Shown here one piece after another: positions 19,889 through 26,311 of a stretch of 64,000 nt of DNA (its first letter is position 1; every line of letters starts with the position of its first letter). The notes under the pieces were generated by a model. It did no database searches and was not told the origin of the DNA. It saw only the letters and a list, made by a program, of their open reading frames with translations. Source of the stretch: Ancylobacter gelatini (lineage in GTDB: Bacteria; Pseudomonadota; Alphaproteobacteria; Rhizobiales; Xanthobacteraceae); contig NZ_JAKVIL010000005.1 of the NCBI RefSeq assembly GCF_022601675.1, forward strand, positions 248,001-312,000. The letters run 5' to 3'. The position numbers were made by a program, and so were the translations under genes.

Positions 19889-21127
19889 ATGTCCGACCCC
19901 GTTCCCCATACCTCGCCCTCCGCTGCCGACAATTCCGGCAGCGAGGGGCCAAGTAGTCCCACCGCCGGCCCGCGACGCACCGGCGAGGTTCGCGCGACCG
20001 ACCCTCGCGGCGGCCTGATCGATCGGCTTCGCGGCCTGATCGGCGGCTGGCGCTCCACCGGCTCGCTGCGCAGCGACCTCGCCGAGGTGCTTGCCGCCAA
20101 CTCCGATGCCGGCGCGGACCTGACCGCGACCGAGCGCTCCATGCTCAAGAGCATTCTGGAGCTGCGCGAGCTGCGCATCGGCGACGTGATGGTGCCCCGC
20201 GCGGACATCGTGGCGGTGCAGAAGGACATTTCGCTGGGCGAACTGCTCGCCGTCTTCGCCGATGCCGGCCATTCCCGCCTCGTGGTCTATGACGACACGC
20301 TCGACGACCCGGTCGGCATGGTCCACATCCGCGACCTCGTGACCTATCTCACCCAGCGCGCCATGTCCGCCCGCCCCGGCGCCGCCCGCTCCGCTGCCAG
20401 GGACGCCGTCACGCGGGACGCGGCCCCCCGGGACAGCGACGAGCGCGTGGGCGAGCGCGCGCCGCGCGGCAAGGCGCTGGTGCCCGCCTTCAATCTCAAG
20501 GCGATCGACCTGTCGGCCTCGCTGTCTTCCGCCAAGCTGATCCGCCGCCTGCTGTTCGTGCCGCCCTCCATGCCCTCGATCGAGCTGCTGGCCAGCATGC
20601 AGGCGAGCCGCATCCATCTGGCCTTGGTCATCGACGAATATGGCGGAACCGACGGCATCGTCTCGATGGAAGATCTGGTCGAGGAGATCGTCGGCGACAT
20701 CGAGGACGAGCACGATGACGACGAGACCCCGCTGATCGCCCGCCAGCCGGACGGCAGCTTCATCGCCGACGCCCGCGCCAATCTCGAAGACGTGGCCGAG
20801 GAGGTCGATCCCGCCTTCGCCGCCGGTGAAGAGGCCGAGGAGGTCGACACGCTGGGCGGCCTTCTGGTCACGCTCGCCGGCCGCGTGCCGGTGCGTGGCG
20901 AGATCGTCGCCGGGCCCGGCGGTTTCGAGATCGAGGTGCTGGACGCCGATCCGCGCCGGGTGAAGCGCCTGCGCATCGCCGCCGCGCGCGGCGCGGCCGA
21001 CCGGGTGGCCGTCCGCGAGGACGAGCCCGCCCTGCGCGGACGCCCGGTTCCCGGCAGCCTGCCGCCGCCCGCCGAACAGGCCGGCGCGCATCATTCGGCA
21101 TCCGCGCGCGGCCCGGATGCCGCCTGA
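19889..21127 (+). CDS. corC: CorC/HlyC-family CBS-domain protein
   Basis: Protein of 412 residues without membrane helices. A first CBS domain starts at ELRIGDVMVPRADIVAV and a second at LLFVPPSMPSIELLASMQ. They are followed by the acidic VSMEDLVEEIVGDIEDEHDDDE and a C-terminal CorC_HlyC domain. It was linked to magnesium/cobalt efflux with CorA in Salmonella; the role in alphaproteobacteria is unclear. An insertion rich in Ala, Arg and Asp (about residues 160-190) separates the CBS repeats. Its end overlaps lnt by 11 bases, so expression is likely coupled. Confidence 0.93.
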   Translation: MSDPVPHTSPSAADNSGSEGPSSPTAGPRRTGEVRATDPRGGLIDRLRGLIGGWRSTGSLRSDLAEVLAANSDAGADLTATERSMLKSILELRELRIGDVMVPRADIVAVQKDISLGELLAVFADAGHSRLVVYDDTLDDPVGMVHIRDLVTYLTQRAMSARPGAARSAARDAVTRDAAPRDSDERVGERAPRGKALVPAFNLKAIDLSASLSSAKLIRRLLFVPPSMPSIELLASMQASRIHLALVIDEYGGTDGIVSMEDLVEEIVGDIEDEHDDDETPLIARQPDGSFIADARANLEDVAEEVDPAFAAGEEAEEVDTLGGLLVTLAGRVPVRGEIVAGPGGFEIEVLDADPRRVKRLRIAAARGAADRVAVREDEPALRGRPVPGSLPPPAEQAGAHHSASARGPDAA

Positions 21128-22805
21128 AGCGCCGGGCGAGGCCGGGCGGGTGGCCCTTGAAGCCCCGCGCCCGGCTCCGGCCACCGGGCGGATCGGCCGT
21201 GCCCTGATGGGCCTGCCGCAGCGCCTGCGCCGCCTGTCGACGCGAAAGCGCGGCGGGCTGGCTTTTCTGGCCGGCGCGGTCTCCGCGCTTGCCATGCCGC
21301 CCTTCTCGCTCTGGCCGCTGCTGGCGCTGACACTGCCGCTGCTGGTGCTGCTGCTGGACGTCGCGCTGGAGGGTCGCCCGGCGCGCGCGCGGCTATGGCC
21401 CGGCTTCGCCACCGGCTGGCTGTTCGGCATGGGCTATTTCCTCGCCGGCCTGTGGTGGATCGGGCAGGCCTTCCTGGTTCAGGCCGACGCCTTCGCCTGG
21501 CTGATGCCGTTTGCGGTGCTGGCGCTGCCGGCGGGGCTGGCCTTGTTTACCGGCCTTGGCTGCGCGCTCGCCGCGCTGGGCTGGGGCGGAAGCCGGGGCC
21601 GCATCCTGCTGCTGGCGGGCGCGCTCACCCTTGCCGAGTGGCTGCGCGGCACCGTGCTCACCGGCTTCCCCTGGAACAATTTCGGCTATGCGCTGGCGAA
21701 TGATCTGAGGCTGGCGCAGGCGGCTTCCGTGGTCGGCCTTTACGGCCTGTGCGTGATCGCGCTGGCGACGCTGGCCTCTCCCGCGGCGCTGTTCGGCGCC
21801 CGAGGCGGCATCAAGGCCCGCCTTGGCCCGCCGCTGCTCGCCGCGCTGGTGCTGGCCGTCCTGTGGGGCGCCGGCGCCTGGCGGCTCGCCACCACGCCCA
21901 CCACCTTCGTGCCGGATGTGAAGCTGCGCCTGATGCAGCCCGACCTGCCGCAGGACCAGAAATTTCGCTACGACGCCCGCCGCTCGGTGATGGACCTCTA
22001 CATCGCCACCAGCCAGCAGCCGGGCGGGCTTGCCGGCATCACTCATCTGATCTGGCCGGAATCGGCGTTTCCGTTCTTTCTGGAACGTGAGCCCGAGGCG
22101 CTGGCGCGGCTGCGCGGCCTGCTCGGGCCGACCGGCACCCGGCTCATCACCGGCGCCGCCCGCATGGAGCCGCGCCCGGGCCAGCCGAGGCCGGACGCCT
22201 ATAACAGCCTGCGCGTGCTGGGCCCGGACGGCACCTTCCTCGCGACCGCGGACAAGGTGCATCTCGTTCCGTTCGGCGAATATCTGCCGTTCCAGGACAC
22301 CATGGAATGGCTCGGCTTCGAGCAGCTGACCCGCCAGCGCGGCGGCTTCTCGGCGGCGCCGCGCCGCGAGCTTATGGCGATTCCCGGCCTGCCGCCGGCG
22401 GTACCGCTCATCTGCTACGAGGCGATTTTCCCCGGCCGGATCCTGCCCGACGACCTGGCTCCGGACGCCCGCCCCGGCTTTCTTCTCAATGTCAGCAACG
22501 ATGCATGGTTCGGCATTACGCCGGGTCCCTACCAGCATTTCGAGCAGGCGCGCCTGCGTGCCGTAGAGGAAGGCCTGCCTCTGGTGCGGGCCACGAATAA
22601 CGGTATTTCCGCGATCGTCGATCCGCTGGGTCGAATCACCGGGATGCTACCATTAGGTGTACGCGGCACCCTCGATGGAGCGCTCCCGGAACCGGGGAAA
22701 ACGACTATTTATTCGAGAGTTGGCAGCTCGATACCACCGCTTCTTGTACTTTTGTGCCTAATCGTGACAATTATGCTGCAACGCCGTTATGCACGCGGAG
22801 ATTGA
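21117..22805 (+). CDS. lnt: Apolipoprotein N-acyltransferase Lnt
   Basis: Inner-membrane enzyme of 562 residues. Several N-terminal hydrophobic helices are followed by a periplasmic nitrilase-fold domain. The catalytic triad includes Glu in WPESAFPFF and C433 in PLICYEAIFPG. It adds the third acyl chain to lipoproteins, completing the pathway that LspA (encoded at 47.8 kb) takes part in. The ATG at 21117 overlaps corC. An internal ATG at 21207 (MGLPQRLRR) is an alternative that lies closer to the first membrane helix. The last 150 bases are noticeably AT-richer than the rest. Confidence 0.95.
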   Translation: MPPEAPGEAGRVALEAPRPAPATGRIGRALMGLPQRLRRLSTRKRGGLAFLAGAVSALAMPPFSLWPLLALTLPLLVLLLDVALEGRPARARLWPGFATGWLFGMGYFLAGLWWIGQAFLVQADAFAWLMPFAVLALPAGLALFTGLGCALAALGWGGSRGRILLLAGALTLAEWLRGTVLTGFPWNNFGYALANDLRLAQAASVVGLYGLCVIALATLASPAALFGARGGIKARLGPPLLAALVLAVLWGAGAWRLATTPTTFVPDVKLRLMQPDLPQDQKFRYDARRSVMDLYIATSQQPGGLAGITHLIWPESAFPFFLEREPEALARLRGLLGPTGTRLITGAARMEPRPGQPRPDAYNSLRVLGPDGTFLATADKVHLVPFGEYLPFQDTMEWLGFEQLTRQRGGFSAAPRRELMAIPGLPPAVPLICYEAIFPGRILPDDLAPDARPGFLLNVSNDAWFGITPGPYQHFEQARLRAVEEGLPLVRATNNGISAIVDPLGRITGMLPLGVRGTLDGALPEPGKTTIYSRVGSSIPPLLVLLCLIVTIMLQRRYARGD

Positions 22806-22852
22806 TCGACGATGCCCCACGCTTTGCCTAGACTAGCCGGGTATGAGGCAGC

Positions 22853-22891
22853 GCTTCCCTTCTCCTTGCCGGAGCAGGGGGGCATTTTTTT
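22853..22891 (+). terminator. Strong intrinsic terminator or attenuator just before the XRE gene
   Basis: GCTTCCCTTCTCC (22853-22865) pairs with GGAGCAGGGGGGC (22871-22883) in a 13-position stem with one mismatch and two G-T pairs around the loop TTGCC. It is followed by ATTTTTTT. This is the clearest Rho-independent terminator in the window after that of metK. It begins 48 bases after the lnt stop, but the following gene starts only 18 bases after the T tract. That leaves no room for a promoter between, so it may be a conditional attenuator. Confidence 0.75.
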
Positions 22892-22908
22892 GCTTGAGGC
22901 TGGGGAAG

Positions 22909-23319
22909 ATGATGACCAAGAAGTCTCCCAATCCAATTGACAGACATGTCGGAAGTCGCGTCCGGATGCGGCGGATGATGGTCGGGATGAGTCAGGAGAA
23001 ACTTGGAGAGAGCTTGGGAATCACTTTCCAGCAGATTCAAAAATACGAAAAAGGCACCAATCGCATCGGCGCGAGCCGCCTGCAGAACATTTCCAGCGTG
23101 CTGAGCGTCCCCGTGGCTTTCTTCTTCGAGGGCGCACCGACCGGCACCGCTGGCGACGGCTTCGCCGAGGATGCCTCGCCCGCCTATGTCAACGATTTCC
23201 TCGCGACCTCCGAGGGCCTCGCCTTGACCCGCGCCTTTACCCGGATCGCCGATCCCAAGGTGAGGCGGCGCATCGTCGACCTCGTGGAATCCCTCGCGGA
23301 CGCTCCCGCCGCCGGCTGA
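22909..23319 (+). CDS. XRE-family helix-turn-helix regulator
   Basis: Protein of 136 residues with one XRE/Cro-type HTH: RVRMRRMMVGMSQEKLGESL, then ITFQQIQKYEKGTNRIGASRL. A low-complexity linker and a short C-terminal helical segment (RRRIVDLVESLAD) follow. This regulator occupies the slot between lnt and metK throughout Hyphomicrobiales. Its targets are not known to me. Two ATG codons overlap at 22909 and 22912. A terminator-like hairpin precedes it closely, so transcription may depend on readthrough from lnt. Confidence 0.9.
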   Translation: MMTKKSPNPIDRHVGSRVRMRRMMVGMSQEKLGESLGITFQQIQKYEKGTNRIGASRLQNISSVLSVPVAFFFEGAPTGTAGDGFAEDASPAYVNDFLATSEGLALTRAFTRIADPKVRRRIVDLVESLADAPAAG

Positions 23320-23365
23320 GGCGTTCTTTTTTCCGAACGCGTTCGCCAAAATTCTTGACCCTTCC

Positions 23366-23412
23366 GCCGGCGCTTGCCAGAACACCAGCGCCGGCTTTCC
23401 CTTTGCGCCGGC
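23366..23412 (+). promoter_or_regulatory. Candidate alternative-pairing leader of metK
   Basis: GCCGGCGCT (23366-23374) pairs perfectly with AGCGCCGGC (23387-23395) around a 12-base loop, followed by TTTCCCTTT. A second copy of the right arm, GCGCCGGC, lies at 23405-23412. The left arm could therefore pair with either copy, and the second choice brings the helix close to the metK ribosome binding site (GAGGAG at 23421). This could be a regulatory switch or simply the terminator of the XRE gene. It does not look like any SAM riboswitch class I can recall. Confidence 0.4.
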
Positions 23413-23433
23413 AGATATCCGAGGAGCCGACGC

Positions 23434-24627
<1,194 letters not shown>

Positions 24628-24665
24628 GCACCGGCCGATTGCCTGATCCGGCAACGACGTTTAAG

Positions 24666-24697
24666 CGGGGCGGACCCAGATCCGCCCCGTTTCGTTT
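24666..24697 (+). terminator. Rho-independent terminator of metK
   Basis: CGGGGCGGA (24666-24674) and TCCGCCCCG (24681-24689) form a perfect 9-base stem with loop CCCAGA, followed by TTTCGTTT. It lies 38 bases after the metK stop and separates it from trmB. Confidence 0.88.
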
Positions 24698-24732
24698 ATC
24701 GACCGTCTCAAGAGCCGCCGCCGCTTCGTGAC

Positions 24733-25443
24733 ATGACCGCCGATCCCGACGACACCGCCCCCGCCCGCCGCGACGCCGCCTTCTATGGACGGCGCAAGGG
24801 CAAGCCGCTGCGCGCCGCGCAGGCCGCGAGCATGGACAGCGACCTGCCGCGCCTCGCCGTGCCGCTGGACGCACTCGCCGGCCAGCCGCTCGCCGCGCTG
24901 TTTCCCCGCCCCATGACCGCGTTCCGGCTGGAAATCGGCTTCGGCGGCGCCGAGCACCTGATGAGCGAGGCCAAGCGCCATCCCGATATCGGCTACATCG
25001 GCGCGGAAGCCTTTCTCAACGGCATCGCCAAGGCGACGGTCGCGGTCGCCGAGGCCGGGCTCGACAATATCCGCCTGCATGGCGACGATGTGGTGCCGCT
25101 GCTGGAGCGCCTGCCGGACGCCTGCCTCGACCGGGTGGACCTGCTCTATCCCGATCCGTGGCACAAGCGCCGGCACTGGAAGCGTCGCTTCGTGCAGGCC
25201 GACAATATCGGGCGCATCGCCCGGGTGCTGAAGCCGGGCGGGCGCTTCCGCTTCGCCACCGACATCGAGAGCTACGCCGCCTGGACGCTGCGCCAGATGC
25301 TGGCCGATCCGCGCTTCGAATGGACCGCGCGCCGCGCCGACGACTGGCGCCTGCCCTGGGCCGGCTGGCCCGGCACCCGTTATGAGGCCAAGGCCATCCG
25401 CGAGGGCCGCACGCCCGGATATTATGAGTTCCTGCGCACCTGA
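24733..25443 (+). CDS. trmB: tRNA (guanine-N7-)-methyltransferase
   Basis: Rossmann-fold SAM methyltransferase of 236 residues. The SAM-binding segment is LEIGFGGAEHL, and the TrmB signature LYPDPWHKRRHWKRRF is intact, with GTRYEAKAI near the end. It methylates G46 in the tRNA variable loop. It follows metK after a terminator, in the order usual for this group, and probably has its own promoter in the 105-base gap. Confidence 0.95.
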   Translation: MTADPDDTAPARRDAAFYGRRKGKPLRAAQAASMDSDLPRLAVPLDALAGQPLAALFPRPMTAFRLEIGFGGAEHLMSEAKRHPDIGYIGAEAFLNGIAKATVAVAEAGLDNIRLHGDDVVPLLERLPDACLDRVDLLYPDPWHKRRHWKRRFVQADNIGRIARVLKPGGRFRFATDIESYAAWTLRQMLADPRFEWTARRADDWRLPWAGWPGTRYEAKAIREGRTPGYYEFLRT

Positions 25444-25526
25444 ACACCGCCTATCATGGCGGAACCTACCGTGATGCCGCCGCGTTGAAGGGACAGCATC
25501 ACCGATGATTGCTCAGGAGAACCATC

Positions 25527-25877
25527 ATGGCCGAACCCGACGCGCAGAATGATTTCGCCAAGTTGAGCGAGGATCTGGCGGTCCTGAGGGCGGATGTCGC
25601 CAAGCTCGCCGAAACCCTGTCGCTCATGGCCAAGGCCGAGGGCGAAGCCGTTACCGACGCGGTGAGGCAGAAGGTTCGCGCCGGCGCGGCGAGGGCCGAA
25701 GCCACCGCCTCCGGCCTGCTCGAAGAAGGCACCGCCGCCTATGAGGAAGCCAAGGCCCGCGCGCAGGGGCTCACCAGCGAGCTCGGCTCCACCATCGAGC
25801 GCAACCCGCTCAGCGCCGTCGCCGCGGCGCTCGGCATCGGCTTCCTGTTCGGCCTGCTGACGCGGGGCCGCAACTGA
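25527..25877 (+). CDS. DUF883-like membrane-anchored protein
   Basis: Small protein of 116 residues. The N-terminal three quarters form a charged helical coiled coil (DFAKLSEDLAVLRADVAKLAE; ARAEATASGLLEEG). The end is a single membrane helix, NPLSAVAAALGIGFLFGLLTRGRN, the layout of the YqjD/ElaB (DUF883) family. In E. coli such proteins bind ribosomes at the membrane in stationary phase; function here is not shown. The start at 25527 has CAGGAGA upstream. The next gene overlaps its stop by one base. Confidence 0.8.
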   Translation: MAEPDAQNDFAKLSEDLAVLRADVAKLAETLSLMAKAEGEAVTDAVRQKVRAGAARAEATASGLLEEGTAAYEEAKARAQGLTSELGSTIERNPLSAVAAALGIGFLFGLLTRGRN

Positions 25878-26311
25878 TGCTGCGCTTCATCCTGTCGCTT
25901 GCCGGCGTCGAGCTCGACCGCGCCCTGCGCCGGGCGGCGGGAACCGCGATTCTGTTCGCGATCGGCGCGCTGCTGCTTGGCGGCGCGCTGGTTGCGCTTC
26001 TGGTCGCTCTGTTCATCGCGCTGGCCGATGCCTATGACCCGGTGGTCGCGGCATTGCTCATCGCCGCCATCTCCTTCATCGGCGCAACCGTGCTGCTGAT
26101 TCTCGGCTATGCGCGGCTGCGCCGTCCCGCTCCGCGCCCGGGCTATGGCTTCAACCCGCTGGCCGGTCTCGGCCCGGTGGCGCCTCCGCCGACGGCGGCC
26201 CCGCTCACCGGCGAGCTTCCGCCGTCCACCCCGCGGGTCGGCAGCGGCACCATTCTCGGCATTGCAGCCGGCGCGGCACTGCTCGGCCTTATTCTTGGCC
26301 GACGCATCTGA
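25877..26311 (+). CDS. Phage-holin-family (Holin-X like) membrane protein
   Basis: Small membrane protein of 144 residues. It has two close hydrophobic helices (GTAILFAIGALLLGGALVALL and AALLIAAISFIGATVLLILGYA), a Pro-rich linker (PAPRPGYGFNPLAG, APPPTAAPLTG) and a glycine-rich C-terminal hydrophobic segment. It resembles the putative actinobacterial Holin-X family, which usually sits after a DUF883-type gene as here. Despite the name, nothing nearby suggests a phage. The two proteins probably act together in the envelope. Confidence 0.75.
   Translation: MLRFILSLAGVELDRALRRAAGTAILFAIGALLLGGALVALLVALFIALADAYDPVVAALLIAAISFIGATVLLILGYARLRRPAPRPGYGFNPLAGLGPVAPPPTAAPLTGELPPSTPRVGSGTILGIAAGAALLGLILGRRI

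Follow-up and report, generated by a model that had tools for sequence, protein, structure and literature searches.

PraR is a regulator of the XRE family, and its homologues are known from other Alphaproteobacteria as regulators of biofilm, quorum-sensing or R-body genes, as set out in parts of two reports (PMC4149787, PMC5527310). Two levels of control over PraR are described in those parts: autorepression and ExpR act at the promoter, and CinS and 2-oxoglutarate act on the protein. The published PraR consensus is CAAC-N5-GTTG (PMC5527310). In Rhizobium leguminosarum, a regulator of the identical family represses its own transcription; this control is placed at promoter DNA, and the word 'terminator' is absent from the main text of the report (PMC4149787). 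Control after initiation is known from other leaders. In Escherichia coli, RNA 3′ ends inside 5′ UTRs were taken, in the sections concerned, to indicate that premature termination has a regulatory role (PMC7815308). In Sinorhizobium meliloti, which is also an alphaproteobacterium, the leader of a DUF1127 gene is described as undergoing conditional premature termination that needs a translated upstream open reading frame and is thought to be Rho-dependent; in that account a candidate hairpin proved to be no terminator (PMC12218461). For the Ancylobacter locus analysed here, we judge it somewhat probable that a clade-specific terminator in the leader limits praR expression after initiation.

The window, that is, the whole 64-kb stretch of DNA analysed, comes from a 4.3 Mb genome; among its named relatives, Ancylobacter species are the closest. 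All features are given on its + strand. The gene order at the locus is lnt, the XRE gene and metK. The open reading frame of lnt (apolipoprotein N-acyltransferase; Pfam LNT_N and CN_hydrolase) was placed at 21117–22805 by its stop position, and metK (Pfam S-AdoMet_synt N, M and C) at 23434–24627, with a GTG start assigned by similarity to relatives. Between them, the XRE gene (22912–23319; Pfam HTH_3, 1.9e-11) encodes 135 aa, with both the protein and its start conserved. Among the matches listed, the protein shares 78–89% identity with Ancylobacter, Aquabacter, Azorhizobium and Xanthobacter loci; over residues 1–129, identity to Azorhizobium doebereinerae (L076) and A. oxalatiphilum (L086) is 80%. 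By orthology, and by its position between lnt and metK, the XRE gene is identified as praR, a name taken from passages in the literature (PMC10688885, PMC5527310, PMC4149787) and not from a named sequence record. In the comparison of lnt stops and metK neighbours, the filter retained 42 of 46 sequences.

A first-pass annotation of this DNA had described a hairpin followed by seven T, ending 18 bases before the ATG of the XRE gene. The hairpin and the T-run were both recovered, at 22853–22883 and 22885–22891, and they do lie just before the start codon. The distance, however, had been counted to an ATG at 22909 that is found in only four of the 30 genus sequences (L009, L026, L027 and L028). 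An ATG at the place of 22912 occurs in 29 of the 30, the start in L021 lying nine bases upstream, and the praR start codon is thus likely to be ATG 22912, not 22909. Since this is the conserved start, the gap from the T-run is 20 bases rather than 18. A Shine–Dalgarno-like GGGG, identified by sequence and conservation, is located within the gap at 22902–22905.

The hairpin has the sequence GCTTCCCTTCTCC-TTGCC-GGAGCAGGGGGGC, with 12 pairs and one mismatch, and a folding energy of −18.5 kcal/mol, or −20 kcal/mol in a 53-nt context. A G+C-rich stem-loop of 12 pairs, followed by one A and then seven T, is the make-up of an intrinsic (Rho-independent) terminator. Folding energy or a consensus match alone is weak evidence for such an element. 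The 145-nt region folded no better than its shuffles (z = 0.15), the 53-nt stretch folded slightly better (z = −1.34, with 20 of 200 shuffles as good), and a generic consensus scan returned five terminator-like sites in 6 kb where 2.6 were expected. A hairpin and T-run of this quality together arose in one of 100 dinucleotide shuffles of the leader. When the 64-kb window was scanned for hairpins with a T-run, five sites per strand were found, and the site in the praR leader had the longest unbroken T-run. Further along, in the gap that separates metK from the following gene (Methyltransf_4), a strong hairpin with a T-rich tail at 24666–24689, CGGGGCGGACCCAGATCCGCCCCG, is likely to be the metK terminator.

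Upstream of the hairpin lies a conserved promoter-like block. Its first part, TTGATCGACG (22802–22811), is present in all 30 genus sequences, and the last six bases (TCGACG) would serve as the −35 element. After a spacer of 17 bases follows a −10-like TAGACT (22829–22834), which was found in 28 of the 30 sequences; L029 has TAAAGT and in L032 the element is shifted by a base. The pattern TTGATCGACG-N15–19-TANNNT occurred once per genome in five out of five genomes. We infer that the block at 22802–22834 is praR's own promoter and is active, and the position of the −10 element predicts a transcription start at 22841 (about 22841–22843). A general sigma-70 scan of 20000–26000 reported no promoter; its consensus is that of E. 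coli, and the two hexamers score too low to pass it. Outside the genus and its sister groups, inspection by eye found TTGATCGACG absent in 25 of the 27 non-genus loci of a first locus set, and in 21 of the 36 loci listed of 80 in a second; L106 (Aurantimonas) carries a similar block, TTGATTGACA. A literature search returned nothing on transcription start sites in Ancylobacter.

The annotation had also held that no promoter could fit between the terminator and the ATG, and that transcription of the gene must pass the terminator. The first statement is right, and the promoter-like block upstream of the hairpin supports the second: because the terminator sits between this block and the gene, transcription from the predicted start would have to cross it. 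One other placement, a promoter overlapping the T-run with TATTTT as its −10, was rejected; by eye no matching −35 was seen, and the T-run is lost in four of the 30 sequences.

The lnt stop codon, TGA, falls within the promoter block of the window. This raises the possibility that the terminator is simply the ordinary end of the lnt operon, with the praR promoter overlapping the end of lnt, room only downstream of it, and praR tolerating the loss. The position of the stop in the window is in keeping with this explanation, as it leaves no space for a terminator upstream of the promoter. In the sister genera, however, the promoter block and metK are kept without a terminator, so lnt needs none there. 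Moreover, a strong terminator placed 3′ of praR's own promoter would still affect praR, and attenuation would stay compatible with such an origin. We consider an ordinary lnt terminator an unlikely explanation.

Next to the −35 element, CACG-N5-ATTG (22792–22804) is a candidate autoregulatory operator. It resembles the PraR consensus, with three changes in the window and two where the second half is GTTG, and CACG-N5-[AG]TTG adjoins TTGATCGACG in 27 of the 30 genus sequences, as well as in 14 of the 16 from the sister clade. On account of this resemblance, praR may also be subject to autorepression at its promoter.

Comparison across the genus was used to assess the hairpin as a structure. A hairpin was found in all 30 genus sequences, a count that is partly by construction, as the script sought the best hairpin. 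Swapping arms between species removes this bias. For 23 distinct hairpins, the mean energy of matched arms was −17.9 kcal/mol, compared with −13.8 kcal/mol for permuted arms (sd 0.55), and none of 5000 permutations reached the matched mean, with the matched pair being the best in its row for only six of the 23. With the arms alone (22 distinct pairs), the values were −18.26 and −13.82 (sd 0.52), again with none of 5000 permutations as good. In a MAFFT alignment of 27 distinct rows, 84.3% of cells paired versus 76.9% in shuffles, double-change cells numbered 20 versus 6.8, and the covariation score was 0.368 versus 0.266, each value reached by none of 500 shuffles. Two of the five measures were ordinary (121/500 and 108/500 shuffles). 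When the partner was slid by one column, 81.3% of cells were still paired and 15 double-change cells were still counted. RNAalifold assigned this alignment almost no covariation term (−0.08), probably because stem lengths vary, and for this reason the arm-swap test was used as well. Permutations and shuffles alike ignore kinship; with kinship so ignored, the hairpin appears to be kept as a structure by compensatory change. This comparison of related genomes, a check that the first-pass annotation had named, confirms that the hairpin is real.

A terminator-grade T-run was present in 26 of the 30 species, starting 0–2 bases from the stem, and its seven columns contained T in 23, 27, 27, 28, 27, 28 and 30 of 30 rows. 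This conservation suggests that the cell uses the terminator to limit or gate PraR production. In L018, L026, L027 and L036 the hairpin is kept and the T-run is absent. A tree of the lnt–praR–metK region, with the midpoint root between L039/L040 and the genus, joined L027 to L036 in a pair that branches first within the genus (support of the fork above the pair, 93/91), and nested L018 and L026, each beside a species that bears the T-run. A simple reading of this tree would be one gain of the T-run and two losses.

Because these four species keep the hairpin without a T-run, a function of the hairpin apart from termination is possible. The hairpin and the U-rich stretch might, for example, affect mRNA stability or ribosome loading (through 5′ protection, a standby site or an S1 site) and not termination at all. 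Leaders of the sister clades, in which a hairpin, a pyrimidine-rich stretch and a Shine–Dalgarno sequence follow one another with no terminator, are consistent with such a role, as is the hairpin retained in the four species. The close spacing of T-run and stem in the other 26 is, however, the signature of an intrinsic terminator, and a plain U-rich ribosome site need not abut a stem. An effect on stability or ribosome loading in place of termination seems to us rather improbable.

With a covariance model of the leader, each of the 25 same-genus genomes searched had a single strong match, located at praR; the leaders of these genomes had also built the model. Of the 30 genus genomes the search took in 25, and it left aside the seven same-family genomes G030–G036; 116 candidates per genome were scored, with stricter filters. 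Other matches were at the level of noise, with second matches in three of the 25 genomes and matches in four of 16 genomes of the order (best E 0.021). A plasmid collection queried with 181 bases of the region gave no match. As there is no second strong copy in any of these genomes, the leader element looks specific to praR. Another conceivable reading is a small RNA gene, about 50 nt long, whose transcript would finish at the terminator, praR being expressed only through leakage. In its favour are the lack of a second strong copy per genome and the layout of the leader, which resembles an sRNA in that the promoter-like block is followed by a short 5′ segment, the hairpin and a U-tail. The 5′ segment is only moderately conserved, however, and we hold a separate small RNA gene to be extremely unlikely.

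Leaders of the sister clades were compared in the same way. The set comprised 16 leaders from Xanthobacter, Azorhizobium, Aquabacter and related bins (L039, L040, L075–L080, L082–L088, L097 and L112, from which L087 was dropped since its contig is identical to that of L039). TTGATCGACG was exact in 15 of the 16 and had one change in the other, in a set that was chosen by eye for this block; the −10 element is TATCTT or TATGTT, at the same 17-base spacing as in the genus. Despite the identical promoter block, the terminator is absent from these leaders. In its place they carry CTTCGC-N3-GCGAAG downstream of the block and, beyond it, UUUUCCGA ... CCGGAGAG, a pair predicted to mask the Shine–Dalgarno sequence (UUUUCCG with CGGAGAG). 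When the leader was folded at 30 °C as far as the ATG, the masking hairpin formed in 16 of 16, although L075 and L112 folded otherwise, as judged by eye, once nine coding bases were added. Mean modelled accessibility of the Shine–Dalgarno sequence between 15 and 45 °C was 0.01–0.03 in the sister leaders versus 0.44–0.49 in the genus. The sister stems hardly vary, and they therefore allow little test of covariation. In these models, the two elements together look like a device for translational control.

The predicted UUUUCCG/CGGAGAG pairing at the Shine–Dalgarno sequence has a likeness to RNA thermometers of the fourU type; the predicted masking, however, barely changes between 15 and 45 °C, and the leader of the window has no such hairpin. 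CTTCGC-N3-GCGAAG was also considered as a widespread operator and rejected, with one site per genome in the three genomes searched (3/3); in the genome of the window the motif is on another contig than praR. A broader proposal sees the praR leader of the Xanthobacteraceae as a regulatory RNA that has switched its output between clades, from masking of the ribosome binding site in Xanthobacter, Azorhizobium and Aquabacter to a stop of transcription in Ancylobacter, with one promoter and perhaps one signal. We offer this tentatively, as a doubtful extension. Because four of the 30 genus sequences are without a T-run and the sister genera are without a terminator, the terminator is not essential for praR across the family.

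If RNA polymerase passes the terminator, the passage may be constant or controlled. The first-pass annotation had suggested RNA switching or translation of a leader as routes of read-through, and neither found support. A switch would have the 5′ arm pair with either the 3′ arm of the terminator or the Shine–Dalgarno sequence, and a ligand, temperature or a protein would decide between the two states. GCUUCCC is indeed able to pair with GGGGAAG. In the full-leader model of the window the Shine–Dalgarno sequence is nearly all paired (unpaired 0.00–0.01, 15–37 °C), the pairing with the 5′ arm being strong enough in the model to hide it in this species, and in L009, L010, L018 and L025 (four of 30) it is unpaired at 0.06 or less at 37 °C. 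The genus mean of its accessibility at 37 °C is nevertheless 0.47, and both states of the switch would be off. Permutation gave no sign of coevolution in any combination. Pairing of the 5′ end with the tail beyond the hairpin was equalled by 1950 of 5000 permutations, that between the 5′ arm and the Shine–Dalgarno region by 2534 of 5000, and that of the 5′ end and 5′ arm together with this region by 3511 of 5000. A mutually exclusive antiterminator was thus not found for the two pairings; other pairings, and factors acting in trans, lie outside this test. Rfam gave no match at the gathering score in the window, with one weak hit nearby (E 3.7). An RNA switch of this kind is, in our estimation, very unlikely.

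Leader columns conserved in at least 90% of rows comprised the base of the hairpin, its G-rich arm, the T-run and the next base, the Shine–Dalgarno sequence, the start codon and one 5′ G; no conserved aptamer was seen, as such columns are confined to the terminator, the translation signals and that single G. Counting ATG starts only, no leader open reading frame was common to the genus: an ATG between the predicted start and the end of the hairpin occurred in seven of 30 sequences, at differing places. The length from the block to the praR ATG ranges from 106 to 113 nt and varies by non-multiples of three, which makes the stretch look non-coding. A leader peptide was accordingly set aside. Two further candidates were discarded. 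A SAM riboswitch, considered because metK is the next gene, had no Rfam match, and metK has a promoter-like CTTGACC of its own. A thermometer suggested by data on reb genes in Azorhizobium was dropped since, in the section concerned, the temperature effect persists without praR (PMC5527310). Candidates for control at the terminator that remain are a protein, an RNA acting in trans, or simple constant attenuation, and we hypothesise that read-through of the praR terminator could be regulated.

Any gate in the praR leader need not act on metK, because of the promoter-like motif in front of the latter. CTTGACC (23354–23360) is likely to be part of the metK promoter; it was found in 27 of the 30 genus sequences, or 29 of 30 when CTTGACC or CTTGACG was counted. 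Right after the praR stop, and before this motif, the window has an inverted repeat, CGTTC-N8-GAACG (23322–23339), a possible operator. GTTC-N8-GAAC was present after praR in 28 of 30 genus sequences and, by eye, also in the distant locus L041. L018 and L021 have no such repeat in the 150 bases after praR, L021 is also without CTTGACC, and in both metK is farther from praR than in most relatives.

We return to the leader terminator as a limit on praR expression after initiation. In this mechanism, praR would be transcribed from its own sigma-70-type promoter (22806–22834), starting at about 22841, and some 50 bases on RNA polymerase would meet the intrinsic terminator (22853–22891) in the 5′ leader. 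Some of the transcripts would end there, giving a leader RNA of about 50 nt, and the remainder would enter praR. The terminator would thereby cap PraR output after initiation, acting like a transcription attenuator, and would also block transcription running on from the lnt operon. We infer a terminator that functions in vivo and halts only part of the transcription. Such a checkpoint in the leader, if true, adds a post-initiation layer to the control of PraR.

What is new here is the comparative picture: a terminator conserved in one genus, absent in a few of its members, and a differing predicted device in the sister clades. A literature search found nothing on a phrR leader in Sinorhizobium, nor on the lnt/XRE/metK arrangement in Alphaproteobacteria; a praR leader may conceivably have been described earlier, and we make no claim to a first description. 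With a terminator in one genus and predicted Shine–Dalgarno masking in the sister genera, these leaders form a natural experiment on changes in the output of bacterial leaders. Compared with known systems, the praR leader shares with transcription attenuators that carry an intrinsic terminator the predicted order of promoter, short leader, terminator, Shine–Dalgarno sequence and gene; it differs from them in having no common leader open reading frame, no coevolving antiterminator and no aptamer. The 5′ UTR ends of E. coli, as presented in the sections cited above, were mapped by 3′-end sequencing (PMC7815308), whereas the praR terminator is predicted from sequence comparison. Unlike the S. meliloti DUF1127 leader, as described in the relevant part of that report (PMC12218461), the praR leader has no common open reading frame and carries a canonical intrinsic terminator.
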